Of a DNA stretch of 38,449 nt, positions 3,134-37,283 are shown in pieces (the first letter of the stretch is position 1; each line of letters opens with the position of its first letter). A program made the translations under genes and the position numbers. The stretch comes from Thauera sp. (lineage in GTDB: Bacteria; Pseudomonadota; Gammaproteobacteria; Burkholderiales; Rhodocyclaceae). The notes beneath the pieces were generated by a model, which did no database searches, was not told the origin of the DNA, and saw nothing but the letters and a program-made list of their open reading frames with translations. The stretch is from positions 169,666-208,114 of the forward strand of contig JAFLDS010000005.1 of the NCBI GenBank assembly GCA_017302295.1, in the 5' to 3' direction.

Positions 3134-3901
3134 ATGCTCAAGCAAAGCCAGCCTAGTCAGGCACTCGCAGCACGCAAGGGCCGCAACCTTCATGTCGGGC
3201 TCGCCACCTGCGAAACCGAGATCCTCGAAGCGCAGAAGCTGCGCTACCGGGTCTTCGCCGAAGAAATGGGCGCCCGCCTCAACACCCGCACGCCGGGCGT
3301 CGATCGCGACATCTACGATCCGTACTGCGACCACCTCATCGTGCGCGACGAAGACGCCGGGCGCATCGTCGGCACCTATCGCATCCTGTCGCCGTCGGCG
3401 GCGCGCAAGGTCGGCGGTTACTACTCCGAGAACGAATTCGACCTCACCCGCCTGCAACACCTGCGCAGCCGGATGGTCGAGATCGGCCGCTCGTGCATCG
3501 ACGCCGAGTATCGCAGCGGCGCGGTGATCGCGCTGCTGTGGTCGGGCCTCGCGCACTACATGCAGGAAAACGGCTACGACTACCTCGTCGGCTGCGCCTC
3601 GATCAGCATGGCCGACGGCGGCCACACCGCGGCCAACCTGTACAATCGCCTGCGTGAAGATCACATGGCGCCGCTGGAATACCACGTCTTCCCGCGCTGC
3701 CCGCTGCCGCTCGATGCGCTGGCAAACGACACGCCCGCCGAGGCGCCGCCCCTGATCAAGGGCTACCTGCGCGCCGGCGCCTGGATCTGCGGCGAGCCGG
3801 CGTGGGATCCCGACTTCAACACCGCCGACCTGCCCATCCTGATGCCGATGAACAAGGTCGACGGCCGCTACGCCAAACACTTCATGGGACGCAAGGACTG
3901 A
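3134..3901 (+). CDS. olsB: OlsB-like N-acyltransferase (ornithine lipid synthesis)
   Basis: This 255-residue GNAT-fold acyltransferase is probably L-ornithine N-alpha-acyltransferase, which makes lyso-ornithine lipid from ornithine and 3-hydroxyacyl-ACP. Recognisable segments are LRYRVFAEEMGA near residue 35, the DRDIYDPYCDHLIV region, VGTYRIL, VEIGRSCIDAEYRSG (the acyl-donor-binding core) and the C-terminal GYLRAGAWICGEPAWDPDF typical of the OlsB/hemolysin-like acyltransferase family. A GAGAA ribosome site precedes the ATG by 8 bases. The next gene starts 6 bases after the stop and encodes a PlsC-type O-acyltransferase, the expected second step, so the two form an olsB-olsA operon. Ornithine lipids are phosphate-free membrane lipids. 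Confidence 0.82.
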   Translation: MLKQSQPSQALAARKGRNLHVGLATCETEILEAQKLRYRVFAEEMGARLNTRTPGVDRDIYDPYCDHLIVRDEDAGRIVGTYRILSPSAARKVGGYYSENEFDLTRLQHLRSRMVEIGRSCIDAEYRSGAVIALLWSGLAHYMQENGYDYLVGCASISMADGGHTAANLYNRLREDHMAPLEYHVFPRCPLPLDALANDTPAEAPPLIKGYLRAGAWICGEPAWDPDFNTADLPILMPMNKVDGRYAKHFMGRKD

Positions 3902-7827: not shown

Positions 7828-9213
7828 TCAATACGCGTTGGGGCTAACAAAGCCCTTGATGATGGTCAGCAACATGATCTTCAGATCGAGCCATACGGAC
7901 CAATTCTCGATGTACCAGAGGTCGCATTCGATGCGCTTGTGAAGGTCGGTGTCCCCCCTCCAGCCATTGACCTGGGCCCACCCCGTAATACCCGCCTTGA
8001 CCATGTGCTTCTGCATGTAACCTGGAATCTCATGCTTGAAGCGATCGACGAACACGGTCCGCTCTGGCCGCGGACCGACAATCGACATCTCCCCGTTCAG
8101 CACGTTGAACAACTGCGGCAGCTCATCCAGGCTGGTACGGCGCATGAATGCCCCGAACCGGGTCGTCTGCTTGTCCCGCGCACGCCCCCATTGCACGCCA
8201 TCGCTTTCGACGCCGACCGGCATCGAACGAAACTTGTACATCATGAAGGGCTTGCCATTCCAGCTCACTCGCTCCTGCCGATAGAAGACCGGCCCTGGCG
8301 AACTCAAACGCACACCGATCGCAAGCGCCAGCATCAACGGGCTAATCAACACAAGGACAAGACTGGCAATGGCGCGGTCCTCGATCGCCTTCGCAAGCAG
8401 ACTGAGACCAGACATCGGTGAGCAGCTCAACTCGAGCAGCCTAAGGCCGGCAACGTTCGAAATGCGGTGATTCATGAGCCAGAAGTCGCGCGGATCCGGC
8501 ATGTAGCGCACATTCGCGGTCGTCAGACTCAATGCCGACTGAATCTCCTTCACGTCCTCACCCATCGACAGGGGGAGACATATCCACACTTCATCCTCTT
8601 CGTGATCGATCGGCACGCCACGAACGAAGTTCTCATGTGCCACGCCATAAAGTTCGGCAGTGTCAGCTTCGCCATGAACGATCACCCGCCCGACATCGAA
8701 CCCCGCAATCGGCGTACGCCGGAGGCGCTCGACCACGGTACCGCAGGCGCCAGCGTTGCCCACCAACAGCACGCTTCGGCGATTACGCCCCTGAAGCCGC
8801 AAGCGATTCAGAACCGGGTAGGCCAGCATGCGCACCGCTACAGACAGCAACGTCGCACCGCAGATCCAGTAGCCGACCCACAAACGCGAGTACTGCGCCC
8901 CCACCTTCGCAAAGAACAGCAGGACGGTCGCCACTGCGCCAACGAGCAGGTAGGCCATCACGAGTTTCGCAATCAGTAACAGCCTGACCCGGCCGCGCCA
9001 CGAACGATATATGCCGAAACCCGGCAACACGATGAGCACCAGCAAGGCACCGATAATGATCGCGACCTCATAGTGCCCCGGGGAGATGACCGGGGTACCA
9101 AAGCGCAGCCAGAAGGCCAACCAGCCCGCGATGACAATGCAGCCGAGGTCGGCCAGACGCGCCAGACCACCGGCCGCGCCGCGCAACCCAGCACTGTCGA
9201 AGAACTGCTTCAA
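7828..9213 (-). CDS. WcaJ/GumD-type undecaprenyl-phosphate sugar-phosphate transferase
   Basis: This is a polyisoprenyl-phosphate hexose-1-phosphate transferase of about 461 residues that would load the first sugar onto undecaprenyl phosphate. The N-terminal half has several membrane helices and a nucleotide-binding-like CoA_binding_3 domain. The C-terminal bacterial sugar transferase domain contains RLSSPGPVFYRQERV, MYKFRSM, RRTSLDELPQLFNVLNGEMS, SIVGPRPE and the final GITGWAQVNGWRGDT. I place the start at a TTG (9211-9213) whose TTGA overlaps the stop of the upstream gene and which has GAGGAG 6 bases ahead. A GTG at 9267 is the in-frame alternative. It is the last gene of the operon. The specificity (glucose, galactose or other) is not readable. 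Confidence 0.88.
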   Translation of the reverse strand: MKQFFDSAGLRGAAGGLARLADLGCIVIAGWLAFWLRFGTPVISPGHYEVAIIIGALLVLIVLPGFGIYRSWRGRVRLLLIAKLVMAYLLVGAVATVLLFFAKVGAQYSRLWVGYWICGATLLSVAVRMLAYPVLNRLRLQGRNRRSVLLVGNAGACGTVVERLRRTPIAGFDVGRVIVHGEADTAELYGVAHENFVRGVPIDHEEDEVWICLPLSMGEDVKEIQSALSLTTANVRYMPDPRDFWLMNHRISNVAGLRLLELSCSPMSGLSLLAKAIEDRAIASLVLVLISPLMLALAIGVRLSSPGPVFYRQERVSWNGKPFMMYKFRSMPVGVESDGVQWGRARDKQTTRFGAFMRRTSLDELPQLFNVLNGEMSIVGPRPERTVFVDRFKHEIPGYMQKHMVKAGITGWAQVNGWRGDTDLHKRIECDLWYIENWSVWLDLKIMLLTIIKGFVSPNAY

Positions 9214-9797
9214 CTCCCGCTCCTCACATCGGACGACCACGGAAAGCGCACGATGGTCTGCCGCCACAGCATGAAATCCGGCTGCACGAGCGGACGCTCG
9301 AAGGTCACGACGATCACCGCGGAACGGATCTCGGCAGCGGCGTTGTGCGACCTGACAAAGCCGATGACATCCCTCAACGTGCCGCCCGAATCAACTGCGT
9401 CGTCGACGACCAGCACCCTCACAGGGCGAGCCAGAATCGCATCGACACTTCCGCCGATCACCACCACTTCGGACGACTCGGCCTTGTGATTACGGAGCCG
9501 GAACAACGTCTTGCGCGCCACCATCTCGATCCGGCGCAGGAAGTCATTCACCTGTGTGGGCAGAATCGGCAGCATCCGCCGCAGCCCCACGGCAGCTTTG
9601 ACACGGGTCACCTGGCGCTGGCGCCGCACCGTCAGTTGCTGACAGTCTCCGGGAAAGTTCATTGCATCCGCCACAAGTTGTCCTCCAGTGGCGACACCGA
9701 TGACGACATCCGGTAGAAATTCGACGGCGACCATTGCACTCAAGGATGCACAGGCACCCTCGAATGCGGACTTGGAACTGCAGTCTACGATGCGCAC
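9210..9797 (-). CDS. PRPP-dependent phosphoribosyltransferase in glycan operon
   Basis: This 195-residue type I phosphoribosyltransferase has an intact PRPP loop VVDDAVDSGGT (residues 130-140). A GVATGGQ strand-loop lies at 34-40 and a purine-salvage-like end, WRQTIVRFPW, at 179-187. Between residues 56 and 105 it has an unusually basic helical hood with about fourteen Arg/Lys, which could bind a lipid-linked or membrane acceptor. The start is GTG, 6 bases after the HAD gene stop; its own stop overlaps the start of the WcaJ gene. It sits in a tightly packed polysaccharide operon next to a phosphatase, so I infer transfer of 5-phosphoribosyl from PRPP to a glycan intermediate. A stray purine-salvage enzyme is the alternative. 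Confidence 0.8.
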   Translation of the reverse strand: MRIVDCSSKSAFEGACASLSAMVAVEFLPDVVIGVATGGQLVADAMNFPGDCQQLTVRRQRQVTRVKAAVGLRRMLPILPTQVNDFLRRIEMVARKTLFRLRNHKAESSEVVVIGGSVDAILARPVRVLVVDDAVDSGGTLRDVIGFVRSHNAAAEIRSAVIVVTFERPLVQPDFMLWRQTIVRFPWSSDVRSGS

Positions 9798-9803
9798 AAA
9801 CGC

Positions 9804-10451
9804 TCACCCCAACACTTCGACACGACCGCCGAGCGGCTTGAACGCCTGGAGCGCCGCGGCGGATGGATGGCACAAGTAGGTTTTCACCGCCGCGATCGCC
9901 GTCGGTAGATCATCCTCGTGGTCGGTGAAGAGAATGAAGTTGCCGCGATCGCTGCCCGCTCTCGACAACCCTGCACAAATACGATCACGCTTAGTCGCGC
10001 CAGTGTTGTCGATGTAGTCCGCCCCTTCCTGCTGGCTGCACACGACGCCGCACACTGGCAACGGCAGGATGGCTGGGACAGCCCTTGCGTAGCAGGAAGG
10101 CGCTGCCGTCGCGATCAGCACCGGCCCTCGTGCCACCGATGCCATTTTTCCAAGCACATCGGCATGCAACCGGGAGCGTAGTTCATTTACAAAATCCGCT
10201 GCCCAACCATCCGGATAGGACAGGCTGTCGACCTTGCGCTTGAACTCGCCATGCTGCGTCGCGCAGAAGATCTTTCGCTTCAGTACAGCAGCAGTGATTG
10301 CCACAAACAACCTGAACCTGAATGTCGTGAGCGAGCGAACGGCGACAAACCGGATCCACAGCGGAAAACTGTTTCCCGAAATCAGGGTGCCATCGAAATC
10401 GGCAACGGTCAGAATCGATGGCGGGGTAACAATCCGCTTATCGAGGCCCAT
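9804..10451 (-). CDS. HAD-superfamily (subclass IB) phosphatase
   Basis: This 215-residue HAD phosphatase has motif I DFDGTL (nucleophile Asp at residue 18), motif II/III around IATAAPSCYARAV and GATKRDR, and motif IV TDHEDDLP. The cap is a small helical insertion with an aromatic, hydrophobic stretch (NSFPLWIRFVAVRSLTTFRFRLFVAI) that may associate with the membrane or a lipid-linked substrate. It overlaps the GT2 gene by 14 bases and is followed 6 bases later by the phosphoribosyltransferase gene. The pairing suggests that it removes the 5-phosphate left after phosphoribosyl transfer. A phosphoserine-phosphatase-like role on another sugar phosphate is possible. Confidence 0.83.
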   Translation of the reverse strand: MGLDKRIVTPPSILTVADFDGTLISGNSFPLWIRFVAVRSLTTFRFRLFVAITAAVLKRKIFCATQHGEFKRKVDSLSYPDGWAADFVNELRSRLHADVLGKMASVARGPVLIATAAPSCYARAVPAILPLPVCGVVCSQQEGADYIDNTGATKRDRICAGLSRAGSDRGNFILFTDHEDDLPTAIAAVKTYLCHPSAAALQAFKPLGGRVEVLG

Positions 10452-11244
10452 GAATGCGGCCCTTCAATGCGGTCAGCAGATTGCGCGGAAACAGCAACAC
10501 CAACAGGCTGCGCGCCAGCCCCAGAACCGATTCGCGATTGATTTCGAAATAGGCAAGCTGCAATTTCAGTTTGCTCACGGATTGCCGCAGACGCCTGCGA
10601 CTGGAAATACTGTTCGGGCTGACCACGTAGGAGGTCAGCACCTCCGGCATGTTTCCCATTCTTCCGATCATCCGCCCCCGCATGAAGTAGGCCCAATCCT
10701 CGAGCGCCGGATAGTCAGCTGGGTAGAAACCGTTCCGCAAGACATAGTCCCTCCGCATCATGACTGATGGATGTACGAACGGGTTGTACATCTTTATCGA
10801 ACGAAGAATTTCCGCGTGATCGACAGGGTGCCGCAGGGTGAACAGTCGCTCTCCTGAGTCGCTGACGAAGTCGACCCACGTTCCACATATGTCCAGCGCT
10901 TGGGCGTCCATGTACTGCTGCTGCTTCGCGAAGCGGTTCGGCGCTACGGTATCGCCTGAGTCCAACCGTCCGATGAAGCCATATCCCCTGTCCAGCACAA
11001 AACGAAGTCCATGATTCAACGCTGTCTCGATTCCATGATTAGCACCGAGGAGAATCAACGACAAACGGGTTTTCGGGTGGCAGACCCGTTCCAGCTCGGC
11101 AAGTTGCGGCGCAGACGGGCTTCCGTCATCCACGACGACGACTGCAACGGCTCGCTCCTCCATGATGCTTTGCAGCGAAACAAGCAGTTCCGACGTTTCG
11201 CCGTAATGCGGTATCACAACGCATGTCTCGGCTTCAGGGCTCAT
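10438..11244 (-). CDS. Family 2 glycosyltransferase
   Basis: This 268-residue GT-A glycosyltransferase opens with CVVIPHYGETSELLVSLQSI, the usual GT2 start. The nucleotide-binding VVVDDGS and the metal-binding DSGD (in GFIGRLDSGDTVAPNRF) are present, together with FVHPSVMMRRD and an EDWAYFMR acid motif (ED) that fits the catalytic base region. There are no strong membrane segments, although the C-terminus has a hydrophobic LARSLLVLLFPRNLL tail that may dock to the membrane. It overlaps both neighbours (ATGA with the upstream GT, 14 bases with the HAD gene). It probably adds one sugar to the undecaprenyl-linked repeat unit. Confidence 0.9.
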   Translation of the reverse strand: MSPEAETCVVIPHYGETSELLVSLQSIMEERAVAVVVVDDGSPSAPQLAELERVCHPKTRLSLILLGANHGIETALNHGLRFVLDRGYGFIGRLDSGDTVAPNRFAKQQQYMDAQALDICGTWVDFVSDSGERLFTLRHPVDHAEILRSIKMYNPFVHPSVMMRRDYVLRNGFYPADYPALEDWAYFMRGRMIGRMGNMPEVLTSYVVSPNSISSRRRLRQSVSKLKLQLAYFEINRESVLGLARSLLVLLFPRNLLTALKGRIHGPR

Positions 11245-12302
11245 TGAGTGATCCTCGATACCGCGGCCCGATCCTCGTCAATCAGCTTCTCCATCCCCTT
11301 GGCGAGCGCAAACACGCGGTGGCCCACCAGTTCATGCGGCAGATGGCGTACACAGCTGGACACACGCGTCGCTGGCGCAAACAGCGGCGAATAAATCATC
11401 GCACTCGAGATCAGGCCGAACAGATGATGGACGACTTGAGGGTTCGCGCAGACATACTTTTCACAACTCATACCCGCATCGAGTACCACCACTTCCTCTA
11501 CATGCACCGCCAAGGCTTGAACGGTAAGTGCAAGCACCTCTCGAGAGGTACGCGGATGTGGTTTTACTAGGAGCGATCGCCCGTCAAGCGTTCGAGCAAT
11601 CGCATCGACATACTTAAGCCAATGCCGGAGCGGAACCCCACACTCCTCCACCAGCAACTCCATCAGGAAAATCCGCATGATGTCGGCTGACTCGCAGATC
11701 TGGGGCAACGCATGTCCGACACCGAGCGGCTGAAGCGTTTCGACATGAGCCCCCGCGGCGCGCTCATCGGCAAAGCTCTTCGGGTGAAGGCTGACGTATT
11801 CGTCGTAGAGCCGACCACGAAACCCGGCAAAGTTGGTCTTATAGGACGGGATCAACACCGAATACGCAAATTCCTTCAGCCCATGCAGCACGCCTGCCCG
11901 ATCACGGTGCCACGCCCGGTCCACAATGGAGCCAGCGCCATCCTCGTACATCACCACACGGGCGGCAGAATATCTGCGCAAGAGCATACCGAGCGCCAAC
12001 CGATATTCGAGGGAAACATCGTTGGGAAGATATATCCGGACCGGGCCGACGGGATCCCGCCCGAGTTCGCCCACAAGCGATTCGACACCACAGCGCACGG
12101 ACCGCCACAACCTGAACTGATTAAACGGAAAGCAGGAATCGTAGCGGCAATCGATAAGGCGTGCGTCCGTCGATAGCCGACTCCCGCTTCGGTTCAATTC
12201 GACTGGAATGAGCCTCACGCCAACCTGCGCCCGATAGCTGCGCATTATCAGTTCGTGGAGTGGCGTAGAAAGCAGCCAGATGATCAGTTTCTCTACAGGC
12301 AT
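11241..12302 (-). CDS. GT-B sialyltransferase-like glycosyltransferase
   Basis: This 353-residue protein is not a GT1/GT4 enzyme. Three short motifs shared by bacterial sialyltransferase families are in the right order: EDG at 120-122 (VVMYEDGAGSI), HP in VKPHP at 247-250, and SS at 299-300 (GLISSAMIYSP). This suggests a GT52/polysialyltransferase-like GT-B fold acting on CMP-activated sugars. No CMP-sialate or Kdo-type synthase gene is in the glycan cluster, so the donor is open. The frame is open further upstream into the flippase gene; the ATG at 12302, 14 bases after the flippase stop, gives a family-like N-terminus. It ends in an ATGA overlap with the GT2 gene. Confidence 0.7.
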   Translation of the reverse strand: MPVEKLIIWLLSTPLHELIMRSYRAQVGVRLIPVELNRSGSRLSTDARLIDCRYDSCFPFNQFRLWRSVRCGVESLVGELGRDPVGPVRIYLPNDVSLEYRLALGMLLRRYSAARVVMYEDGAGSIVDRAWHRDRAGVLHGLKEFAYSVLIPSYKTNFAGFRGRLYDEYVSLHPKSFADERAAGAHVETLQPLGVGHALPQICESADIMRIFLMELLVEECGVPLRHWLKYVDAIARTLDGRSLLVKPHPRTSREVLALTVQALAVHVEEVVVLDAGMSCEKYVCANPQVVHHLFGLISSAMIYSPLFAPATRVSSCVRHLPHELVGHRVFALAKGMEKLIDEDRAAVSRITQ

Positions 12303-12316
12303 ATCGCGGGGTGCGC

Positions 12317-13591
12317 TCAGGCGGATGCGATGGAGTCCGGCTCGCGCACTGTCGGCAGCGGGCCGCAGCGGCGCAGGGCACCCCATTTGACAAGCAGGAG
12401 GAAGAGAAACGCAAATGCCATCGCAGCAGGGATCGCCGCCTCGCGAAGCCTACCCTCCAGGCACCACGCTGCGCCCGCAAATACCGGCAGCGCAAAGAGA
12501 TGACCGAGAATGAGGGGCCTGTCCATTCCCCGGACATACAGCCCATATTGCGGAATGACGCCAAGTGCCGACAGCGCGACGGCCAACATCGTCCAGTACA
12601 GAAGCGGAAGATGCTCGACATAGACGGGATGCTGCAGCCAGCCGAGCAATGGCGGGGCGATCACCAACACGACGCAGGCAAGCACCACAGTAACGACGAG
12701 CGTTTGCCGGGCGAGCCGCCGCATGAGCTCGTCGAAGGCTTGTCGGTCCCCCCTGTTCGCCGCACCCATCAATGCTGGGCCGATGAAAGAAAATACTGTG
12801 GCCTCGAGCAGACTCGTGACAGCGTTTCCCATGCCACCAAACAGGACATACGCAGCCAACACCTCCAGCCCGCCGAGCCCTTCGATCCAGTATCGATCGA
12901 TGGTGTTGATCGCTCGAAGCGACAACGACCCGACCAGAAAGGGAATGGCGACCCGGGCACCGCGCCAGATCCACGTCCAGTCCACCGCACGCGCCAGTGC
13001 CGTGCGGTTCAGCCCATGCAGCCTCGACGCAGCGAGCACGCAGGCGCCCGCGGCACCCACAAGCCAGGCAAGCAGGACGAAGTCCAGCCGGCGCTGCGCA
13101 GGGTCGAGCCACATCCATGGCACCGCGACCAACGCCCAGATCCCCCACCTCAGGAAGAGGACGACGCTCGCCCACAGCGGCTCCGAAATTCCGATCAGCA
13201 CGCGGTGGAACTCCTGGGCAATGTGCTCAAGGACCAGAAGCGGAAAGAACCAGAGGGCGAGCGTCCAGGGAAGCAACTCCATCGAAAAGAGCAGCAGCCC
13301 GAACGGCATCAGCACAAGGTAGGCAAGACCGTAGAAAACGCACTGATCGCGCAGCAATGCGCTCCAGTTCGCCCGGTCGGATGCAACCAGGTTGCGCACC
13401 GCGTGCATGTGAAAATCGAAACCCAGCACCAGCAGCGCATAGCTGATCGTCACGGTCAGCAGGCCAAATACCCCCACCTCGGCAGGCTCGAGCAGTTTCG
13501 CCAACGCGAAAATGAGCAGGAATCTGCTCACAAGCGTCGCCCCACGCAGCGCGAGGCCAAGCATCTGCCGCATCGGTTCGGGCGTGATCAT
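12317..13591 (-). CDS. Wzx-like oligosaccharide flippase
   Basis: This 424-residue, strongly hydrophobic protein has about twelve predicted membrane helices in the MOP/PST flippase pattern. Its N-terminus is LALRGATLVSRFLLIFALAKLLEPAEVGVFGLL, split here by helix boundaries. The repeated half includes ARVAIPFLVGSLSLRAINTIDRYWI, a typical mid-protein segment of Wzx proteins with a conserved R/D cluster. It would flip undecaprenyl-linked repeat units across the inner membrane. It follows the polymerase gene by 65 bases and precedes the sialyltransferase-like gene by 14. The pair Wzx plus Wzy indicates Wzy-dependent assembly. Confidence 0.85.
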   Translation of the reverse strand: MITPEPMRQMLGLALRGATLVSRFLLIFALAKLLEPAEVGVFGLLTVTISYALLVLGFDFHMHAVRNLVASDRANWSALLRDQCVFYGLAYLVLMPFGLLLFSMELLPWTLALWFFPLLVLEHIAQEFHRVLIGISEPLWASVVLFLRWGIWALVAVPWMWLDPAQRRLDFVLLAWLVGAAGACVLAASRLHGLNRTALARAVDWTWIWRGARVAIPFLVGSLSLRAINTIDRYWIEGLGGLEVLAAYVLFGGMGNAVTSLLEATVFSFIGPALMGAANRGDRQAFDELMRRLARQTLVVTVVLACVVLVIAPPLLGWLQHPVYVEHLPLLYWTMLAVALSALGVIPQYGLYVRGMDRPLILGHLFALPVFAGAAWCLEGRLREAAIPAAMAFAFLFLLLVKWGALRRCGPLPTVREPDSIASA

Positions 13592-13656: not shown

Positions 13657-14961
13657 TCATCCGCCGGGCATCGAACCATTTGCGACTCGCTTCGACAGAA
13701 CGAAAGCAATCAACAGCATGGCAGCAAGGAAAGGGGATGCGTGGTAAAAGATCCCATCGACGAGGCTGTAGAGCAGCAAGGCCAGGAGCGCGGCCACGGC
13801 GCCATTGAGCACGTCGGAACTGCGGCCCTCGTGAGGCATTGGCCAGATCTTGCGGCCAAGGTCCAGCAAGGCAATGATGATCGCCCCAACGCCGACCAGC
13901 CCGAACTCGAGCAGGATCTGAACACCCGCGTTGTGTGCCTGCACGAGGCCCGGAACGACTCGCTCCCGGGCAAATCCCTCCGGCCCCAGCCCGACGAGCA
14001 GACTCAGCCAGTCCGAACTCACCAAATTCAAGACCTTGATCCAGATCTCGGTCCTCCCCGACGTCACGCCAGCAGCAGAGCCGCCAACCGCCTTGCCGAA
14101 GAACCAGGCAACCGCCTCGGGCTGGGTCAGATATAGCATCACGGCCCCAAGCGCAAATGCGATCAGCGCCTGAAGCAGGACGATTCTCCCCTCTACGCGG
14201 CGCAGGAGACACGCCGCAATCAGGACGAAAGCAAAGAAGTTCATCATCTGCCCGCGCCCGCCAGTTCGAAGGCTGACGTAACCGAGCGCCATGAACAGCA
14301 TCCAGTTCCAAAGCCGGTGTGCATTCGGCTTCGCACCCCAGAACACCGCCCCCAGCGACGCGACAACCGCCAGGTCGTAGCCGAGATGACGGATATGACG
14401 GTAGATCGGTAACGGTCTGACATTGCGTAGGTCGAGATCGGATACGTTCGAAAGCGACAACATCACGAAAAGGTAGAAAACGGCGCCTGCCGTCGCCGCC
14501 AGTTTGGCCCAGTAGAGGGACCGCAGCCCCCTATCGCCTGCCCACCGGAACCACGCAACCGCAGCGAGGACGAATAATGGCTGTACTGCGTAGAACCAGG
14601 TGCGGTCGATCATCTCGAGTGGCAGGCCCTGAGTGAGCCAGCCCACCATGCAAACCAGAAAACCGATGACAAGGACGCGGAACGTCAAGGAGTCGGCAAG
14701 GCTGCTCCGCACACTCCTCGCCAACTCCGGCGCCATCAGCGCAACGAACACCCACTGCAGCCACCCGATGTAGCTGTTCGTATGGACTGTGAGATTCCGG
14801 ATCGTCAGTGCCGGCGCAATGAGGATGGCGACCCATAGCACGCATCCGCTGGCGAAATACCGGAAGTTTGAGGAGAAAAGCCGTAAGAACCTGGGATCAC
14901 CATCGTTCTCACAACTCGAGGGACTCAAGCCAACGGCTGTCGATTGGTCGCTCCACGACAT
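13657..14961 (-). CDS. Wzy-like O-antigen polymerase/ligase (Wzy_C family)
   Basis: This 434-residue protein has ten or more hydrophobic helices and a large periplasmic loop containing SGRTEIWIKVLNLV and the AHNAGVQILLEFGLVG motif, hallmarks of the O-antigen ligase/polymerase (Wzy_C) superfamily. Conserved Arg residues in the periplasmic loops (YVSLRTGGRGQMMNF) fit a catch-and-release polymerase. Ligase and polymerase functions cannot be told apart by sequence; because Wzx lies next door, polymerase is favoured. It starts 11 bases after the ABC ATPase stop, so it is probably in the same transcript. Confidence 0.87.
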   Translation of the reverse strand: MSWSDQSTAVGLSPSSCENDGDPRFLRLFSSNFRYFASGCVLWVAILIAPALTIRNLTVHTNSYIGWLQWVFVALMAPELARSVRSSLADSLTFRVLVIGFLVCMVGWLTQGLPLEMIDRTWFYAVQPLFVLAAVAWFRWAGDRGLRSLYWAKLAATAGAVFYLFVMLSLSNVSDLDLRNVRPLPIYRHIRHLGYDLAVVASLGAVFWGAKPNAHRLWNWMLFMALGYVSLRTGGRGQMMNFFAFVLIAACLLRRVEGRIVLLQALIAFALGAVMLYLTQPEAVAWFFGKAVGGSAAGVTSGRTEIWIKVLNLVSSDWLSLLVGLGPEGFARERVVPGLVQAHNAGVQILLEFGLVGVGAIIIALLDLGRKIWPMPHEGRSSDVLNGAVAALLALLLYSLVDGIFYHASPFLAAMLLIAFVLSKRVANGSMPGG

Positions 14962-14972
14962 GTCGTTATCCT

Positions 14973-15890
14973 TCAGTTCCCGCGAACATCCGTGCTCTTC
15001 GTCTGCTCGATCACCCGCATGAACGCCGACTCAAGCGAAAGTCGGGGCCGGACCTCCAGCAACTCCTGGCCAGCCGAGCGGATTTCAGCCAGTGCCCGCC
15101 AAAGGTCAGATTGAGAGAGTTCCCAAACCCAACGTTCGCCCGGCTCGGCAATCTGGCCCTCGACTTTCTTGCCTCCAAGACTGCGAACCGTTAGCTGGTC
15201 ATCCTGCCCGACGAGTTCGGCAGGCGAACTTACTGCCCGCAAACACCCCTGATGGATCAATCCATAGCGATCGGCGAGACGTTCAACGTCGTGTAGCACA
15301 TGCGACGAAAAAAATAGCGTACCCCCGCCGCTGCGGTACTCGGCAAGGATATCGACCACATCCCTGCGCCCGATGGGGTCCAGGCCGGAAAGCGGCTCGT
15401 CAAGGATCAACAACTTCGGCTTTATGGCAAGCGCATGCGCCAGCGCCGTGCGCTGCACCATCCCTTTGGAGAACCCGCGGATCACTTTGTTGGCCACATG
15501 AGCAAGTTCGAAGCGTGACAGCCAGCCCATGCAATGGGCACGCAAATCAGCCACGTCCAGTCGATGCAGCTTTGCACCCATCAACAGGATTTCAAGCGGC
15601 GTCATGTAGTCCGGCAGCGAGGGATTCTCTGGAACGTAGCCCAGCCCAGCACGGGCGCGGTGGTCCGACGCCGGCGTGCCGAACAGCATCGCCTCGCCGG
15701 AGGTTGGTTGAAGGCCGCCTGTCAGGATCTTGATCGTGGTGCTCTTCCCGGCCCCGTTTGGCCCGATGAAGCCGAAGGATTCGCCCTGTGCAATCGCAAG
15801 CGACACATTATCGAGCGCGTGAAAGGCCGAACCAAAGGCTGACTTCCTGTAGGTCTTGCCCACTCCGATGAGTTCGATGGCGTGGCTCAC
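14973..15890 (-). CDS. ABC transporter ATP-binding protein
   Basis: This 305-residue ATPase has Walker A GPNGAGKST (43-51), a Q-loop region, a signature written GFSKGMVQR (139-147), Walker B LLILDEP (160-166) with the D-loop SGLD, and the switch His in SSHVLHD. It resembles the ABC-2/gliding or natA-like class used for polysaccharide, lipid or small-molecule export. The C-terminal 70 residues form an extra domain after the nucleotide-binding domain. The start is GTG, overlapping the previous stop (GTGA). It is separated from its permease by one gene for a membrane-anchored helical protein, so the three form one export module. Confidence 0.9.
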   Translation of the reverse strand: MSHAIELIGVGKTYRKSAFGSAFHALDNVSLAIAQGESFGFIGPNGAGKSTTIKILTGGLQPTSGEAMLFGTPASDHRARAGLGYVPENPSLPDYMTPLEILLMGAKLHRLDVADLRAHCMGWLSRFELAHVANKVIRGFSKGMVQRTALAHALAIKPKLLILDEPLSGLDPIGRRDVVDILAEYRSGGGTLFFSSHVLHDVERLADRYGLIHQGCLRAVSSPAELVGQDDQLTVRSLGGKKVEGQIAEPGERWVWELSQSDLWRALAEIRSAGQELLEVRPRLSLESAFMRVIEQTKSTDVRGN

Positions 15891-16735
15891 TGCCGCTTCC
15901 CCTTTGGCCTGTTCAAAAGCACTGGCTCTCCATCTGCGCCCAGCTCAAAACCGAAGCCGAACGGGTCCTCCGGGATGGCCTCGATATACCGATGCGCTAC
16001 GAGCTCACTCAGCGTGGCAGGCTTGCGCCCTAGGTCCGTAATGAACCGCCTGGTCGCCTGGGTCAGCGCCTCCAATGCCCTCAATCGCGCCACGCGCTGC
16101 AGCAGGTAATCACGGAACGCGGAATGCTTCACGCTCTCCGCCATCGCTTCGATAATGCCGATCGCCACGGTCGGCTCGTTACCGGCCTCGAACCAGCGTG
16201 CAGCCATATTCTGCAGCGCGATCCGGTTGTCGACACTCCGGGCGCGGTCAGCGGCTTTCAGCAACCATTGCGCGCCCTCATCGGGATTCTTGTGGAAGTG
16301 GTACACATTGAAGGCATAGTAATAGGCAGGCAATTCATCAAAGGGCCGGGCCTGCATCGCCTTCAACAAGATATTCTGCGCAGCGTCGACCTGCCCCTCC
16401 CAAGGGAGGATGGCCGTTGCGGTGTAGTAGTTGTCTTCATGTGCCGGATTGAGAAAGGCCACATCCGATTGCACCTGAGCAAGCACCTTGACGCGGTCCG
16501 GATCCAACGCCTCTACCGAGGAGACCAGAGCACGCACGGCGGCCAACTCAGCCGCCAGGTAGCGGTCTCCGCCTGCCATCATGACCTGCAGAAACCAGGG
16601 AAGCGCAACCTGCAACTCAAGACTCACGCGCTTTGCGGGAATACGTTGCAGCTGCACGTTGGCAAAAGCAAATGCCGCAATCGCGAGGGCAAGGACGCCA
16701 AACGCTCCAAGGCGACGTAGCAGCAAGGTGTCCAT
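15887..16735 (-). CDS. Membrane-anchored helical-repeat protein of the ABC module
   Basis: I do not recognise a named family. The 282-residue protein starts with one membrane helix (LGAFGVLALAIAAFAFANVQL). It is then helical, with a TPR-like rhythm (DNYYTATAILPWEGQVDAAQNILLKAM split by turns; ALQNMAARWFEAGNEPTVAIGII). It ends in a small domain with PEDPFGFGFELGADGEPVLLN, which resembles the C-terminal end of minor pseudopilin-like or secretion-associated proteins. It most likely sits in the inner membrane with a periplasmic domain. Its gene lies between permease and ATPase and overlaps the ATPase start, so it is probably an accessory subunit. Confidence 0.7.
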   Translation of the reverse strand: MDTLLLRRLGAFGVLALAIAAFAFANVQLQRIPAKRVSLELQVALPWFLQVMMAGGDRYLAAELAAVRALVSSVEALDPDRVKVLAQVQSDVAFLNPAHEDNYYTATAILPWEGQVDAAQNILLKAMQARPFDELPAYYYAFNVYHFHKNPDEGAQWLLKAADRARSVDNRIALQNMAARWFEAGNEPTVAIGIIEAMAESVKHSAFRDYLLQRVARLRALEALTQATRRFITDLGRKPATLSELVAHRYIEAIPEDPFGFGFELGADGEPVLLNRPKGKRQ

Positions 16736-16761
16736 GGAGTGACTTCCGCTACTAGAAGGGC

Positions 16762-17565
16762 TTACAGGAAGTCACGCCGCCTGAACATCAGCACGGCACC
16801 AAAGAAAACGACTGTGAAATAGGCAAGTGCGAGCATGCACGCATACATCATCTCTTGCGCAACCGGCTGCACGCCATACATAGGCCAGACTCGCCAATCG
16901 AGGCGCGACAGATCAGGCAAGACCCAACGTATGAATTGAATGATCGGCCCATACCGATGTACCAGTTCTTCCTGCCCGTCCGCACCGCTGGTCAGATAGT
17001 CCGCCACCGGGCCAATGCTTTGCGAGGCAATGGCAAACGCAGCGCCAACGACAAAGGGGAGCCCACTGATGGTCGACAGCGATGCAACGAAGAAGGAAAC
17101 GGCCGTCACCACAGCGACCGAAAGCCATAAGCCAAGAAGGGCAGTCCAGTATGGAACGCCGAGTTGGGGCGCCCATTCCTGCTCGTATCGCCCGCCCGCC
17201 GCGAGTACGGCGATCTGGAGCAGGAAACCCAGGCCCACCACGACGATGGCCAGCAGCATCACGATGCCCGTCAGCCTGCCGCACAGGTACGCCAAACGCG
17301 AAACAGGGTAGCTAAGCGAATGAAAGATCGTCTTGCGGTCGATTTCGCGTGAGACGAAATCCTGCACCCAGAACAAGGCAAAGAGCACGAGCGCGAATCG
17401 AATACCGGAAAGACCGACATCCAGCGCAACGGTCTTGGGGCTACGCGGAGAAAATGACGCCGCCAGAAAGGCAACGCCAACGAGAAACAAGCCCACCACC
17501 ATGACCGATTGGAAAGAGCGGCTTCTGAAACCGGATCGGACCACAGACCAGGCGAACTCTAGCAT
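16762..17565 (-). CDS. ABC-2-type transporter permease
   Basis: This 267-residue membrane protein has six predicted helices. It has the ABC-2 permease layout: a short cytoplasmic start with VVRSGFRSRSFQSVMVVG, helix 2 preceded by FVSREIDRKTIFHSLSYPVSR (the coupling-helix-like SYPVSR motif common in this class), and a C-terminal FRRRDF basic end. It is followed by the helical accessory gene and the ATPase. The substrate could be a lipid, a glycan intermediate or a peptide; Wzx and Wzy in the same operon suggest that it is not the main repeat-unit flippase. Its start lies only about 29 bases beyond the terminator hairpin of the pilin unit. Confidence 0.85.
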   Translation of the reverse strand: MLEFAWSVVRSGFRSRSFQSVMVVGLFLVGVAFLAASFSPRSPKTVALDVGLSGIRFALVLFALFWVQDFVSREIDRKTIFHSLSYPVSRLAYLCGRLTGIVMLLAIVVVGLGFLLQIAVLAAGGRYEQEWAPQLGVPYWTALLGLWLSVAVVTAVSFFVASLSTISGLPFVVGAAFAIASQSIGPVADYLTSGADGQEELVHRYGPIIQFIRWVLPDLSRLDWRVWPMYGVQPVAQEMMYACMLALAYFTVVFFGAVLMFRRRDFL

Positions 17566-18404: not shown

Positions 18405-20339
18405 CTACTCCCACACCGACGCATAGGAATTGCGCAGACGCACCGCGCTCAGCAACTGCTCCTCGGCCGCGGCTTCCTGAGGCGCGTCAGGCACGAAGAG
18501 GTTCGCGCGCTCATGCGGATCTGCGTTCAGGTCGTAATGTTCGAGCGCGCGCCTACTATAGAGGTAGATCAGCTTGCGCCCTGCGTCGTCGAGGTGCGTG
18601 AGGCAATAGTCCTTGTAGAAGCAGCTCGTGATCAGGGAAGCATGCCCATTGGCGTCGGTAAGCAGGCTCCGGCCCGGGAGCCGTCCGGCAGTCGTGAGCC
18701 CTGCGGCCTCGAGGACGGTCGGCATCACGTCGATGTGCTGACGCAAGCCGCGTATCGGCTCGGTCGAGGCCGGCGCAACGGGTGAACGGATGATCAGCGG
18801 TACGCGCATCCCCTCTTCGTACGCCGTGCCGTTGTGCGCGATCTGACCGTGCTCGGCGAACCCCTCGCCGTGGTCGCCGGTGATGATGACGAGGGTGTTG
18901 TCGAGCACGCCGTTCTTGTCCAGTTCGGCAAAAAGGTCTGCGATGACACGGTCGGTGTAGCGCAGCCCTTCGAGATAGGACGCATAAGCTTCCGCGGGTG
19001 TTTCGGGCGGCGTCGGGTTCCCGGGCGACACGTAAGGGTGATGCGTTGCCAAGGTGAGCACCGAGGCGAAGAAAGGCGTGCCGGCGCGGTGTTGGCGCAC
19101 CATCCACTGTGCTGCAGGCCGGATCAACGCGCGATCGTCGATGCCCAGGTAGCCGAGTGTTGGCCAGTTTTCACCTGCAAAGCTCTCCTGGGTGGTGAAG
19201 TCATCGAAGCCCATGTTGCGCAGCAACTGGCCACGGCTCTCGAAGGTCGCGGACGCCGTCTGGAAATGCGCGCTGCGGTAGCCTGCCCGCGCCAGCAGCG
19301 TAGGCAGGCAGGGAATGCTCAATCCGCCAGCGGTGCCTTCGGTAATTTCCGGATCGAAACGAGGAAAGGTTCCGCAGTAGAGCCCGACCAGCGCCTTCGA
19401 GGTATGCGGGATCGTCGTATAGGCGCGCTCGACCACCCGGCTTCCGCGCGCAAACTCGTCGATGAAGGGCGTGACACTCGATGACGCGCTGCCAGCCCTG
19501 CGATAGGCACCGATGACATCATGACGAATCGATTCGAGCACGACGACGAGCACGTTGGGTCTTGTCTGCCGAGCTTCGACATGCACGGAGGGCGCCGCGT
19601 AGATCCGTTCCACGCCAGCCTTGCGGCTGTATGTATCGAATTCGAGACGGCCGAAGGCGGTTCCGAACGACATGCCTGACAGAATGCCCATGGTCCATCC
19701 CTGCCGAGCCGATGCGTTCCAGGCCAACTCTTGCTGCTTCCAGTTGGCGTACACCCCTCGATAGAGTCCCTTGCCTGCCTCGACCGGACTGGCGGCGGCC
19801 TCTCGACCGTTCATCCTTTCGGCAAGCTCGCACGCGGGCAGCAGCAGGATCGGCATCGCCAGCGTAAGCCGCACCAGGCGGCGGACGGCGGGGCGCGGGA
19901 GGTTGATCCCGGCCAGCGCCACGAAGCCCAGGGCGAACAGCAGCGGTTGCGCCGTCTCCCAGTCCATCTCGCCCGACGCCACGCCCTTCAGTGCGGCAGC
20001 ATTACGCAGGCCGAACTCGATGATGGCGAAATCGAGCAGCTCCCCCGTCTTCACGAACAGGATCTGCGAGAAGACAACAACCGTGATGATCGCCGTGGCC
20101 AAGGCGAAATGGACGGCACGGGAAGCCCGCACGGCGCCCGCGCCCTCGGACCACAGGCGCTCGACCACCCAATGCGCGGCCGCGAGCAGAAGCAATATCA
20201 GCAGATCGGCCACGCCCGCCTGGAGAGCCGTGCCGGCGCTCCACTGCGGGTTCGCAAGCGGACGCTGGATCAGGAACAAGGCAATCAGTGCCCCAATCGC
20301 AAAGTAGTAACGGCAGGGGGTGAGCGCCAAACGTTTCAT
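18405..20339 (-). CDS. LtaS/phospho-form transferase-like membrane enzyme (alkaline phosphatase fold)
   Basis: This protein of about 644 residues has five N-terminal membrane helices and a periplasmic sulfatase-fold domain. Metal-site motifs are present: VVVLESIRHDVIG (first acid), ITGDHGEGF (Asp-His pair) and IAHNGTAYEEG. The nucleophile region reads YTTIPHTSKALVGLYCG, offering a Thr in the HTSKA position. The CxPxR/SxPxR formylglycine motif of true sulfatases is absent. That fits phosphoglycerol or phosphoethanolamine transferases (LtaS, EptA, PptA types), which decorate lipids, glycans or pilins. The ATG at 20339 is chosen because it opens the first membrane helix; the frame is open 38 codons further. 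It lies directly upstream of the pilin promoter. Confidence 0.8.
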   Translation of the reverse strand: MKRLALTPCRYYFAIGALIALFLIQRPLANPQWSAGTALQAGVADLLILLLLAAAHWVVERLWSEGAGAVRASRAVHFALATAIITVVVFSQILFVKTGELLDFAIIEFGLRNAAALKGVASGEMDWETAQPLLFALGFVALAGINLPRPAVRRLVRLTLAMPILLLPACELAERMNGREAAASPVEAGKGLYRGVYANWKQQELAWNASARQGWTMGILSGMSFGTAFGRLEFDTYSRKAGVERIYAAPSVHVEARQTRPNVLVVVLESIRHDVIGAYRRAGSASSSVTPFIDEFARGSRVVERAYTTIPHTSKALVGLYCGTFPRFDPEITEGTAGGLSIPCLPTLLARAGYRSAHFQTASATFESRGQLLRNMGFDDFTTQESFAGENWPTLGYLGIDDRALIRPAAQWMVRQHRAGTPFFASVLTLATHHPYVSPGNPTPPETPAEAYASYLEGLRYTDRVIADLFAELDKNGVLDNTLVIITGDHGEGFAEHGQIAHNGTAYEEGMRVPLIIRSPVAPASTEPIRGLRQHIDVMPTVLEAAGLTTAGRLPGRSLLTDANGHASLITSCFYKDYCLTHLDDAGRKLIYLYSRRALEHYDLNADPHERANLFVPDAPQEAAAEEQLLSAVRLRNSYASVWE

Positions 20340-20474
20340 GAAATTCCGATGTTGTTCCTCAGCAAACGGGGATCGCACGAGCTGCCCGCTTTGCGGCCGC
20401 GTCACAATGGTCGCGGCTGGAAACCTATTCCTCCTGGGAAGCAAAAACCGCACCTATCCACCCCCAGTTCAAGC

Positions 20475-25960: not shown

Positions 25961-27205
25961 TCAAGCCCCGATCAGCCGCGCCTGCTGGCCAAAGCAGTGC
26001 TCCACGCGACGCATGATCTGCGCGTCCGCGCCGGTCGCTTCAAACACGCTACGCCACGCGCCGACACCCACCCGGATGTGCTGGATTTCATCGCTCGCCT
26101 GGTGTCGCGAGAGTCCGAACTCGGCAGAGTGATCCAGCGCAAGCGATAGATCCGACTCAGGACGGCCATCGACGATGGCCATGCCCTGATAACCCAGGTT
26201 ACCGAGCTGCGGCACCAGATCGAACGCAGGCGCAAGGCGGAAGCGGTCTGCAGCCACGTGCAGGACGCCGTGGTTCTTCACGTGGTCGTCGGAATTGTCG
26301 ATGAAGAGATTGAACACGAGCCTGCGGAAAAGCTCGCGCAGATCGCTCGCAACGTCTGCACCGTGAAGCCGAAGATGTCGCGCCAGTCGCACATAGCTGC
26401 CTTCGGACGACGCATAGGGACTATCGGTGAAAGCCGCGGCGGACAGGTAATGCAGGCGCAAGTCCCGCTCGATGCTCCCCGGACGGTCGAAGCGGCGCAA
26501 CACCAGTGCCCGCGCGCTGCGCAGCGGGACGAGTTCGAACTCGGGCACCCGGATGCCGCAACGCCGAGCGAGCGCCATGGTGCAGGCTTCGAGCGTCTCG
26601 ACATCGAGTTCGTCGTCGCGCGCGGGAAACTTCGCCATCCACAGCGCGTCGCCGCGAATCAAGGTCGCCTTGGGGCGAACCCCGCCCAGGCTGCCGCCGT
26701 GCCGCAGCAGGCGCCGCATCTCTCGCGGCACTTCCATGTCGAACGCGAGCCGATGGGCGGCTTCGGCGAGATCCTCCAGCGCGTAGCGTTCAAGCGGCCC
26801 ATCGACCGCCCCGAGCGAAGGTGACTCGGCGAACGTCATTGCACCGACGCGGTCTGCATTGGTGGCGAGCAGCACGTCAACATCGTCGAGCTCCCGCCAG
26901 TCATTGCGCGCGGCCAGCACCAGCCTGCCCCAGGCATCCGGTAACGCATCGCGAAAAGTCTGGTTGAGTGCGCCGCCATCGCGCAAACGGCGTCGCGGCA
27001 TCGTCGTCACACCGGGCCCAAGCGGCAGATAGGCCGGGTTCAGCGACACCGCGTCAGGCCGGGCAAGATAGCCACGGCCGTAGGCGAAGACCCCTTCCTC
27101 GCTCAGGCCATCGCGCACGACACGCATCAACCCTGCCGGCACCGGCAGCGATGCGCCGGGCAGATGCAGGCCGACGTACAGGGATCGCTCAGAAATCGAG
27201 CTCAT
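25961..27205 (-). CDS. hipA: HipA-family serine/threonine kinase toxin
   Basis: This 414-residue HipA-like kinase has an N-terminal HipA_N-type domain (LYVGLHLPGASLPVPAGLMRVV), the Gly-rich GGSLGGVRPKATL loop, and KFPARDDELDVETLEACTMALA with an ATP-binding Lys and Glu. VLRRFDR, the catalytic loop NLFIDNSDDHVKNHG and the metal-binding FDLVP in LAPAFDLVP complete the fold. Relatives phosphorylate aminoacyl-tRNA synthetases such as GltX. The start overlaps hipB by 17 bases. It is complete and all kinase residues that I can check are present. Confidence 0.9.
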   Translation of the reverse strand: MSSISERSLYVGLHLPGASLPVPAGLMRVVRDGLSEEGVFAYGRGYLARPDAVSLNPAYLPLGPGVTTMPRRRLRDGGALNQTFRDALPDAWGRLVLAARNDWRELDDVDVLLATNADRVGAMTFAESPSLGAVDGPLERYALEDLAEAAHRLAFDMEVPREMRRLLRHGGSLGGVRPKATLIRGDALWMAKFPARDDELDVETLEACTMALARRCGIRVPEFELVPLRSARALVLRRFDRPGSIERDLRLHYLSAAAFTDSPYASSEGSYVRLARHLRLHGADVASDLRELFRRLVFNLFIDNSDDHVKNHGVLHVAADRFRLAPAFDLVPQLGNLGYQGMAIVDGRPESDLSLALDHSAEFGLSRHQASDEIQHIRVGVGAWRSVFEATGADAQIMRRVEHCFGQQARLIGA

Positions 27206-36310: not shown

Positions 36311-36320
36311 GCCCCATTGC

Positions 36321-36399
36321 CGTTGGGGGTGCCCGCCAGGAAGGCGGGCTGAGAAAAACCCTTGGAACCTGATCCGGCTAACACCGGCGTAGGGAAACG
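36321..36399 (+). ncRNA. TPP riboswitch (THI element)
   Basis: This leader has the conserved THI-box core: GGGGGTGCCC, then a variable stem GCCC/GGGC, CTGAGA, ACCC, AACCTGATC, and the final GCGTAGGGAAACG. The closing stem pairs CGTT at the start with AACG at the end. It binds thiamine pyrophosphate. The aptamer ends within about 6 bases of the thiD start and its GTAGGGA overlaps the ribosome-binding region, so ligand binding would block translation. Regulation by termination is less likely because no terminator hairpin follows. Confidence 0.96.
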
Positions 36400-36404
36400 T
36401 GTAC

Positions 36405-37283
36405 ATGAGTCCGCCTGCCAGCTCGTCCGCCTCGTCTCAATCCACCCACCGCTCCCGCATTCCGAACGTCGTGTCCATCGCCGGCGTCGACCCCAGCGGC
36501 GGGGCCGGTGTGTTCGCCGACCTGAAGACCTTCTCCGCGCTCGGCGCCTACGGCTGCGGCGTCATTGCCGCGCTCACCGCGCAGAACACCCAGGCCGTCA
36601 CCGGCGTGCATGTGCCGCCCATCGACTTCCTGCGCCTGCAGATTGACACCTTGTTTGCCGACGTCGCGCTGCATGCGACCAAGATCGGCATGCTCGGCAG
36701 CGCCGAAGTGACCGCGACGGTGGCTGATCGCCTCGCCCACTGGAAGGCGGCTAACGTGGTCCTCGACCCAGTGATGGTGGCCAAAAGCGGCGACAGCCTG
36801 CTGGCCAGAAGCGCCATCGCGATGCTGCGCGAGGCCCTGTTCCCGCAGGCCTTCCTGATCACCCCCAACCTGCCCGAAGCCGGCGTCCTGCTCGAACAGC
36901 GCGCGCCCGAATCCGTAAAGGAAATGTATCGCGCGGCCGAGCGCCTGCGCGAGTTGCTGCCGCTGTCCTCCGAGCGCTGGGTGCTGCTCAAGGGCGGCCA
37001 CCTGCCCGGCAACGAGCTGGTCGACCTGCTGTTCGACGGCGATCGCATGGTCGAACTACCGGCACCGCGCATCGACACCAAGAACACGCACGGCACCGGC
37101 TGCACGCTGAGTTCGGCCGTCGCCGCGCTGCTGCCGCAGGCTGAAGGCCAGTTCCGCCCCGTCGAATCGGCCGTGCGTCACGCCCGCCAGTGGCTGCTGG
37201 GCACCATCGCGCATTCGGGCGAGCTTGCCGTCGGCAGCGGCCACGGCCCGGTCCACCATTTCCATGCGCTGTGGCGCAAATAA
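36405..37283 (+). CDS. thiD: Hydroxymethylpyrimidine (phosphate) kinase
   Basis: ThiD phosphorylates HMP and HMP-P to HMP-PP in thiamine synthesis. The 292-residue ribokinase-fold protein has VSIAGVDPSGGAGVFADLKTF (split by strand), LGAYGCGVIAALTAQNT, KIGMLGS and VLDPVMVAKSGDSLL. It also has LITPNLPEA, LLKGGHL and the active site THGTGCTLSSAVAA. The ATG at 36405 is preferred because AGGGA of the riboswitch end stands 10 bases ahead; the GTG at 36399 is too close. It is followed after 21 bases by thiC, and both are under the TPP riboswitch. Confidence 0.95.
   Translation: MSPPASSSASSQSTHRSRIPNVVSIAGVDPSGGAGVFADLKTFSALGAYGCGVIAALTAQNTQAVTGVHVPPIDFLRLQIDTLFADVALHATKIGMLGSAEVTATVADRLAHWKAANVVLDPVMVAKSGDSLLARSAIAMLREALFPQAFLITPNLPEAGVLLEQRAPESVKEMYRAAERLRELLPLSSERWVLLKGGHLPGNELVDLLFDGDRMVELPAPRIDTKNTHGTGCTLSSAVAALLPQAEGQFRPVESAVRHARQWLLGTIAHSGELAVGSGHGPVHHFHALWRK

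Follow-up and report, generated by a model that had tools for sequence, protein, structure and literature searches.

Known ribosylation systems and the Thauera locus

Some bacterial surface polysaccharides acquire beta-ribofuranose from phosphoribosyl pyrophosphate (PRPP): a phosphoribosyltransferase (PRT) of the gPRT family adds the residue together with a HAD phosphatase (PMC11127046, PMC10299916, PMC12096443, PMC11231755, PMC12887879). The examples given there are dual-domain gPRT/PRP enzymes: K. pneumoniae O4 ORF5 and O7 ORF7, CriT-CrpP of Bcs3 from Haemophilus influenzae type b (Hib), C. jejuni Cj1432 and E. coli KrkA. Here we study a pair of genes in a stretch of 38,449 nucleotides (nt) from a Thauera sp. 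(contig JAFLDS010000005.1, positions 169,666–208,114), which we call the window. The two genes are consecutive and code for a compact PRT of 195 amino acids (aa) and a HAD-IB phosphatase. Judging from sequences and predicted structures, they probably form a split cytoplasmic beta-D-ribofuranosyltransferase which acts on a lipid-linked glycan.

The window pair would share with the gPRT/PRP enzymes the PRPP donor, the transfer of ribosyl-5-phosphate and its dephosphorylation by a HAD enzyme; both are found in surface-polysaccharide loci. The proteins themselves are different. The gPRT module of Cj1432 spans residues 574–914 (PMC12096443). CriT spans residues 599–1036 and has three helical bundles, and the function of its acidic DD pair is split across two loops, D680 and E818 (PMC10299916). 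These modules are larger than the window PRT, whose DD pair is contiguous, so that this structural feature of gPRTs is absent from it. Furthermore the gPRT/PRP enzymes have two domains, whereas in the window family only one of 80 loci has a fusion and the nearest solved relatives of the PRT are purine PRTs. The Bcs3 and T. composti structures do not appear among the best 60 of 104 PDB matches of our PRT profile, nor among the best 50 of 738 Foldseek matches of the PRT model.

A different type of enzyme makes lipid-linked ribose. Citrobacter ORF15 transfers ribosyl-5-phosphate from PRPP to polyprenyl phosphate: it is a UbiA-type membrane enzyme with nine helices and a HAD domain (PMC11127046). 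This enzyme and the mycobacterial DPPR synthase with its phosphatase resemble the window pair by going from PRPP through ribosyl-5-phosphate to a dephosphorylated ribosyl group, and ORF15 also uses a HAD. They differ by their UbiA nature and their polyprenyl-phosphate acceptor, whereas the window PRT belongs to PF00156 and has a type I fold.

The original prediction, made from the letters of this DNA, had chosen the mycobacterial synthase as its parallel; the gPRT/PRP pair is closer. It had also mentioned PRPP-dependent ribofuranosyl transfer in some enteric polysaccharides, for which the gPRT/PRP enzymes are experimentally proven precedents. Its central idea, ribosyl-5-phosphate transferred from PRPP to a glycan and then dephosphorylated by the HAD enzyme, gains from these precedents and from the conservation of the pair, and is not new as chemistry. 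Overall its idea is largely right by the comparative evidence, and we consider its interpretation to be partly supported. On this reading the pair would work like gPRT/PRP but through a separate PRT lineage, and it is the lineage which seems to be new. Its novelty rests on literature searches that stop short of the founding study of the gPRT family, reportedly Kelly et al. 2022: in the literature covered, with that 2022 survey, which may list such pairs, outside it, we found no account of a glycan system built on a type I PRT and a HAD. In butirosin biosynthesis BtrL/BtrP carry out a PRPP-dependent O-ribosylation followed by a phosphatase step on a small-molecule acceptor; our literature search found nothing on them. 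Microbulbifer sp. KMM 6242, a marine isolate, is reported to have a beta-Ribf-Gal O-polysaccharide (PMC3210612).

The phosphoribosyltransferase and the phosphatase

The two genes and the main elements of the PRT are the following:

9210–9797, minus strand: compact type I PRT, proposed glycan 5-phosphoribosyltransferase; 195 aa, GTG start; PF00156, E 1.1e-10
9483–9632, minus strand: basic segment, residues 56–105 of the PRT, with a helical hairpin (sequence and AlphaFold2 model)
9378–9410, minus strand: PRPP-binding motif VVDDAVDSGGT, residues 130–140 of the PRT (sequence)
9804–10451, minus strand: HAD-IB phosphatase, proposed phosphoribosyl 5'-phosphatase; 215 aa; motifs DFDGTL and TDHEDDLP; PF12710, E 1.9e-08

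Both Pfam matches, Pribosyltran (PF00156; 41.4 bits, cut-off 26.3) and HAD (PF12710), exceed the curated cut-offs, and with the open reading frames they bear out the two proteins and motifs that had been predicted at these positions. A scan of both proteins with NCBIfam gave only matches below the cut-offs.

The AlphaFold2 model of the PRT has a pLDDT of 92.3. Its top solved match is the archaeal purine PRT 4zfn (E 4.7e-9, TM score 0.57 on the query); another archaeal purine PRT, 1vdm, is matched with a TM score up to 0.79 on the target. The best 50 of the 738 Foldseek matches are all named PRT or PyrR, with the exception of the hypothetical protein 5vog. The profile of 79 aligned family PRTs agrees with the structure search, since in PDB sequences it finds the purine PRT 1vdm with E 1.3e-14. 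The protein is a type I PRT by its PF00156 match and by the adjacent acidic pair of the PRPP loop, DD in all 79 sequences; the same match and its alpha/beta fold distinguish it from the polyprenyl phosphoribose synthases of the UbiA type, which have a multi-helix membrane fold. Residues R88, D132, D133, D136, G138, W187 and D190 are kept in 79 of 79 PRTs.

A peculiarity of this family is a basic helical hairpin between the pyrophosphate (PPi) loop and the PRPP loop, which in the model comprises two helices, residues 70–78 and 81–101. Residues 56–105 contain exactly 14 Lys and Arg, about the number originally noticed, and 2 Asp and Glu. From the PPi loop to the DD pair there are 80–102 aa in the family versus 52–58 in the nearest 20 of the other PRTs, and the mean net charge of this segment is +8.4 versus +0.65; compared with type I purine PRTs the hairpin is held in about 37 extra residues. 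The inserted segment carries R88 (79/79) and E91 (77/79), in columns which are gaps in the 20 other PRTs. A crude hydropathy window detects one hydrophobic stretch in the PRT.

A further comparison is that with type I purine PRTs (XGPRT/HGXPRT type: 1vdm, 4z1o/4zfn). The fold, the PPi loop, the PRPP loop, the catalytic Asp and the PW motif are alike; the window family differs by the absence of the base-pocket Lys, by the replacement of a Trp (as anchored by spacing), by its basic hairpin and by its HAD partner. The Lys, which we take to be Lys165 of human HPRT and Lys115 of XGPRT, is lacking in the whole family: in the alignment its position is Thr (78) or Ser (1) in the 79 PRTs; the anchor motif was located by pattern in 75 of these and by inspection in the remaining four. 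With the preceding AV[IL] motif as anchor, the Lys is present in all 20 nearest other PRTs, while in a MAFFT alignment the same column is Lys in only 11 of them. The Trp lies 19 residues past the Lys in the other PRTs, before I-x-x-P (19 found by pattern, the twentieth by eye); by spacing, the family position is Leu in 74, Ile in 3 and Met in 2. MAFFT column 182, the Trp/Leu column, has Leu 12, Trp 7 and Met 1 in the 20 others, and their Trp is aligned to W187 in all 20. The HMMER alignments to 1vdm and 4z1o have the PW motifs in register and the Trp opposite the Leu of the family. These equivalences are sequence alignments and motif anchors; in the structures of HPRT and XGPRT the Lys and Trp are presumably the residues which recognise the purine. 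Because D132, D133 and D136 are kept while the base-pocket Lys is changed, PRPP is a likely substrate and a purine an unlikely one. The 79 PRTs fall on one side of a 99/95 branch that separates them from the 20 nearest others, in a tree whose bootstrap had not settled. PRT matches from 20 genomes of the window's order, besides its own, were set aside as purine-type PRTs by alignment and tree.

The HAD model has a pLDDT of 94.3. Its top solved match is 3fvv, followed by SerB; 5'-nucleotidase structures come at ranks 33–35. Residues D18, D20, T22, K154, D177 and D181 are invariant in 75 of 75 sequences. The profile of these 75 finds 3fvv as its best PDB entry (E 2.4e-9), and no Bcs3 chain appears among its 31 PDB matches at E<=10. 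The HAD catalytic motifs and the genetic coupling to a PRT are those expected of a PRP-type enzyme.

Conservation and distribution of the pair

The two proteins were used separately as tblastn queries in 72,556 plasmid records. Both found the same single record: the PRT with 35% identity over 93% of the query and the HAD, in the adjacent gene, with 33% over 78%. In this plasmid the order is PRT-HAD, and the pair lies between genes which by eye are Wzy/ligase-like and polysaccharide pyruvyltransferase-like; PF04932 and PF04230 are matched in the equivalent neighbours of locus L045. It reads as an exopolysaccharide (EPS) locus. A two-row HAD profile gave two strong matches besides the window in 398 genomes of its phylum, both with a PRT alongside. 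In a collection of species genomes the single PRT sequence gave no relative among 75 pattern matches; a four-row PRT alignment gave 307 pattern matches, 89 of them confirmed, from which the best 80 were kept. With the window and L035 added and duplicates removed (L044 from the plasmid of L024, L036 from the contig of L056, and L106 and L115, which nearly duplicate L108 and L117), the census has 80 non-redundant PRT loci. The fused L074 was left out of the alignments and the tree, L121 and three loci without HAD out of the HAD alignment.

A search for such pairs elsewhere had been part of the original prediction, and its outcome is favourable: an unfused HAD gene on the same strand is found in 75 of the 80 loci, at most 60 nt away in 72 and overlapping in 63, and one further locus has a fusion. 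The larger gaps are 903 nt (L070), 136 nt (L102) and 62 nt (L108). The pairing is not due to chance, because in 75 of the 79 loci besides the window the HAD is either fused to the PRT or encoded on its strand. As a control we took 30 loci of other PF00156 proteins with flanks of about 1.5 kb, 10 from the window genome and 20 from its order (L009 and L013 are truncated by contig ends, L125 and L127 overlap): the family-HAD model gave no match at E<=10. Whole-genome searches in seven genomes found exactly one such HAD (E<=1e-20) in each of the five which have it in the locus.

Both gene orders exist; the HAD comes first in just two loci, the window and Zhongshania (L097), and these cluster with Moritella in the PRT tree (99/92, with the bootstrap not settled). 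The fusion is a single frame of 485 aa (L074, 8997–10451, plus strand) in a metagenome-assembled genome (MAG) labelled Clostridiales. In L121 (10527–11123, minus strand) the HAD is on the opposite strand and converges on the PRT, the only such case; a local inversion or an assembly error is possible. The HAD is not present in L075, L079 and L107, the last of which is at a contig end. Seven weak HAD matches from the scan of the 398 genomes (L037–L043) were discarded: their stretches of 6.9–19 kb contain no family PRT, all seven match HAD-type Pfam models only, and the six scanned with NCBIfam look like generic HAD-IB enzymes of the histidinol-phosphatase or PGP type.

The family is rare. At E<=1e-25 the PRT profile is positive in only one of 298 sampled genomes of the window's phylum, Pseudomonadota, besides its own, the genome which holds the Rickettsiales contig of L056 (G552), and in none of 295 genomes of the Barnesiella phylum besides the probe genome. 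A single-sequence search gave no positive among 100 other genomes of the window's family. Such a patchy distribution fits a glycan gene of the serotype kind better than a housekeeping salvage gene. Matching MAGs labelled Staphylococcus and Pseudoflavonifractor have PRTs placed among Bacteroidota in the tree, before its bootstrap had settled, and may be mis-binned.

Polysaccharide genes around the pair

In the window the pair is surrounded by the following genes:

7828–9267, minus strand: WcaJ-type polyprenyl-phosphate sugar-phosphate transferase (initiating enzyme); PF02397 Bac_transf, E 1.6e-67; PF13727, E 8.6e-24
10438–11244, minus strand: GT2 glycosyltransferase; PF00535, E 1e-15
11241–12386, minus strand: polysialyltransferase-like glycosyltransferase; PF07388, E 4.4e-07, 30.2 bits, cut-off 23.3
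12317–13591, minus strand: putative Wzx-like flippase; PF01943 below threshold, about 10 hydrophobic stretches
13657–14961, minus strand: putative Wzy-like polymerase or ligase; about 9 hydrophobic stretches, position

They are transcribed on the minus strand in the order Wzy-like, Wzx-like, polysialyltransferase-like, GT2, HAD, PRT and WcaJ. The gap between HAD and PRT is 6 nt, the end of GT2 and the beginning of HAD share 14 nt, and the longest WcaJ frame, whose true start is uncertain, overlaps the PRT end by 58 nt; the tight arrangement of these four genes is as originally noticed. The polysialyltransferase-like and GT2 genes overlap by 4 nt. GT2 and WcaJ are identified by Pfam. As to the original description of a Wzx/Wzy operon, for the Wzx-like protein the Polysacc_synt match is only below the cut-off (12.6 versus 28.2 bits), the Wzy-like protein has no match in the Pfam scan, and the hydrophobic stretches of both were counted with a crude hydropathy window: the label is plausible, and softer than the other gene calls.

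A glycan marker is found at most 4 kb from the PRT in 51 of the 80 loci, and anywhere in the DNA examined in 55. This census is partly circular because its home-made profiles were seeded by eye from some of the counted loci, the window included; they may overlook divergent Wzx/Wzy proteins, some loci are short, and an acyltransferase counts as a marker (the only one in L075). A GT2 gene on the same strand lies within 100 bp of the pair in 27 loci. Pfam lists of same-strand neighbours, which leave out the window, L024 and L036 and include the near copies L106 and L115, have GT2 in 28 of 101 upstream neighbours (among 25 families listed of 69), and PS_pyruv_trans in 8 and Glycos_transf_1 in 6 of 69 downstream ones (25 families listed of 70).

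Several settings recur, as identified by profile and by eye: Wzy-PRT-HAD-pyruvyltransferase, with an acyltransferase and a GT4 gene opposite, of Rhodospirillales type; GT2-PRT-HAD in Bacteroidales; and recR-(GT2)-PRT-HAD in Flavobacteriaceae. Larger polysaccharide loci with sugar-phosphate transferase and GT2 genes are found in Vreelandella (L093), Zhongshania (L097) and an Oxalobacteraceae MAG (L119). L093 and L119 also carry a Wzx-like gene, which was itself a profile seed, and L114 has a sugar-phosphate transferase gene at a distance of 76 nt from its PRT. The GT2 of the window has strong homologues in L093 (42% identity, 1,320 nt from the PRT), L073 (36%, 4 nt) and L116 (30%, 3 nt), and a weak one in L066 on the opposite strand. 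A homologue of its WcaJ with 43% identity adjoins the pair in L093.

In eight Bacteroidota loci (L073, L080, L090, L092, L096, L100, L116, L120) the pair is near recR, with or without a GT2 gene in between; this is a recurring chromosomal niche. On the contig of L056, from a MAG labelled Rickettsiales, the pair (L036, 8467–9623, minus strand) is followed by a short DUF1003-like gene, away from glycan genes. Among the 69 downstream neighbours, two match DUF1003 (25 families listed of 70).

Proposed function

In the mechanism that we propose, the PRT would bind PRPP-Mg by its PPi loop and DD motif and transfer 5-phospho-beta-D-ribofuranosyl, with inversion, to a hydroxyl of a repeat unit linked to undecaprenyl pyrophosphate. 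This unit would be begun by WcaJ and extended by GT2, and perhaps by the polysialyltransferase-like enzyme. Asp136, whose equivalent presumably acts on the purine in salvage enzymes, may here serve as the base that acts on the sugar hydroxyl, and the anionic lipid-linked acceptor may be held by the hairpin with its basic residues. The HAD phosphatase would then take off the 5-phosphate, leaving a ribofuranose residue which could be extended, with Wzx as its flippase and Wzy as its polymerase.

Several observations weigh against this proposal. We know of no member of the family with a proven ribose-containing glycan, and a brief literature search for some of the host genera found none. The motifs VDDA and RFPWS served as search patterns for relatives, so that some of their conservation is built in. 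A PRT using a base would also retain Asp136 and the PW motif, as this family does. The MAGs of L075 and L079 hold no such HAD anywhere (E<=1e-20). The context is not uniform either: RecR comes second to GT2 among upstream neighbours (8/101, among the 25 families listed of 69), L080, L090, L092 and L096 are beside recR with no GT2 found, the pairs of L036/L056 and L087 lie among unrelated, clearly non-glycan genes, and in 29 of the 80 loci this census finds no glycan marker at a distance of 4 kb or less. In these cases either the acceptor glycan would be the product of genes elsewhere or the pair would have a different function. The original prediction expected the pairs to be conserved in glycan loci and was prepared to fall if they were not; this agrees with the 51 loci counted above, and because of the other 29 it does not pass cleanly.

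The PRT might instead make a polyprenyl-phosphate ribose donor on undecaprenyl phosphate, which after dephosphorylation by the HAD would be flipped to serve in the periplasm, like the product of the three-component system of Citrobacter. ORF15 has the same donor and HAD step (PMC11127046), the membrane could be a docking site for the basic hairpin, and the lone recR-PRT-HAD loci would require no neighbouring glycosyltransferase. We find this unlikely: the known lipid-ribose synthases are nine-helix UbiA membrane proteins (PMC11127046) and not 195-aa type I folds, and 27 of the 80 pairs adjoin a GT2. Pfam matched no glycosyltransferase of the GT-C type in the operon, where the Wzy-like protein could be one.

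A release of free nucleoside, with phosphoribose placed on a nucleobase-like heterocycle and the HAD acting as a 5'-nucleotidase, so that the product decorates a glycan or is a small metabolite, seems rather unlikely too. The retained Asp136 and PW motif would fit it, as would the purine PRTs as nearest solved relatives, the loci which are not glycan loci and the 5'-nucleotidase structures among the HAD matches. The pocket speaks against a base: its Lys is absent in 79 of 79 PRTs and present in 20 of 20 others, and its Trp is Leu, Ile or Met by the spacing anchor (MAFFT places the Trp otherwise). So do the enlarged basic segment and the GT2, Wzy and sugar-phosphate transferase neighbours. That the PRT is an ordinary purine or pyrimidine salvage enzyme, lying in the operon by chance, is very improbable. 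It does belong to PF00156, but the genome has ten further matches to this family, the closest paralogue reaching only E 0.024, and the 99/95 branch and the patchy occurrence at E<=1e-25 described above do not correspond to such an enzyme.

Our preferred explanation is the split ribofuranosyltransferase. As for its origin, we lean slightly towards a purine-salvage-type PRT which lost its base pocket, gained the basic hairpin and turned into an O-glycan phosphoribosyltransferase served by a dedicated HAD, a separately evolved route to ribofuranose. If true, it would be a new glycosyltransferase family, thinly spread over Alphaproteobacteria, Gammaproteobacteria and Bacteroidota, with a few members elsewhere, and many capsules, EPS and envelope glycans that are as yet uncharacterised, among them those of gut Bacteroidales, would be predicted to contain beta-ribofuranose. 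The split pair beside GT2/Wzx/Wzy could serve as a sequence marker for glycan ribofuranose in loci which existing gPRT markers may miss. It would also be a case of a nucleotide-metabolism enzyme apparently redirected from a base to a sugar hydroxyl, and with 195 aa the PRT is small enough for a quick structural and biochemical study.

Other features of the window

Directly upstream of the glycan genes and on the same strand there are an ABC ATPase, a protein of 282 aa without Pfam match and an ABC-2 permease. These genes and further features of the window are listed here:

14973–17565, minus strand: the three upstream genes just mentioned
18405–20453, minus strand: protein of the sulfatase fold (PF00884) whose N-terminal part is hydrophobic; it may be a membrane transferase of phosphoethanolamine or glycerol phosphate
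3134–3901, plus strand: GNAT acyltransferase (PF13444) of the N-acyl amino acid synthase kind, with FeeM and autoinducer-synthase matches below the cut-off
25961–27205, minus strand: HipA-type kinase (PF07804, PF13657)
34449–36185, minus strand: carbonic anhydrase domain (PF00194) and Surface-adhesin E match (PF16747) in a single frame
36315–36412, plus strand: TPP riboswitch aptamer, 73.5 bits

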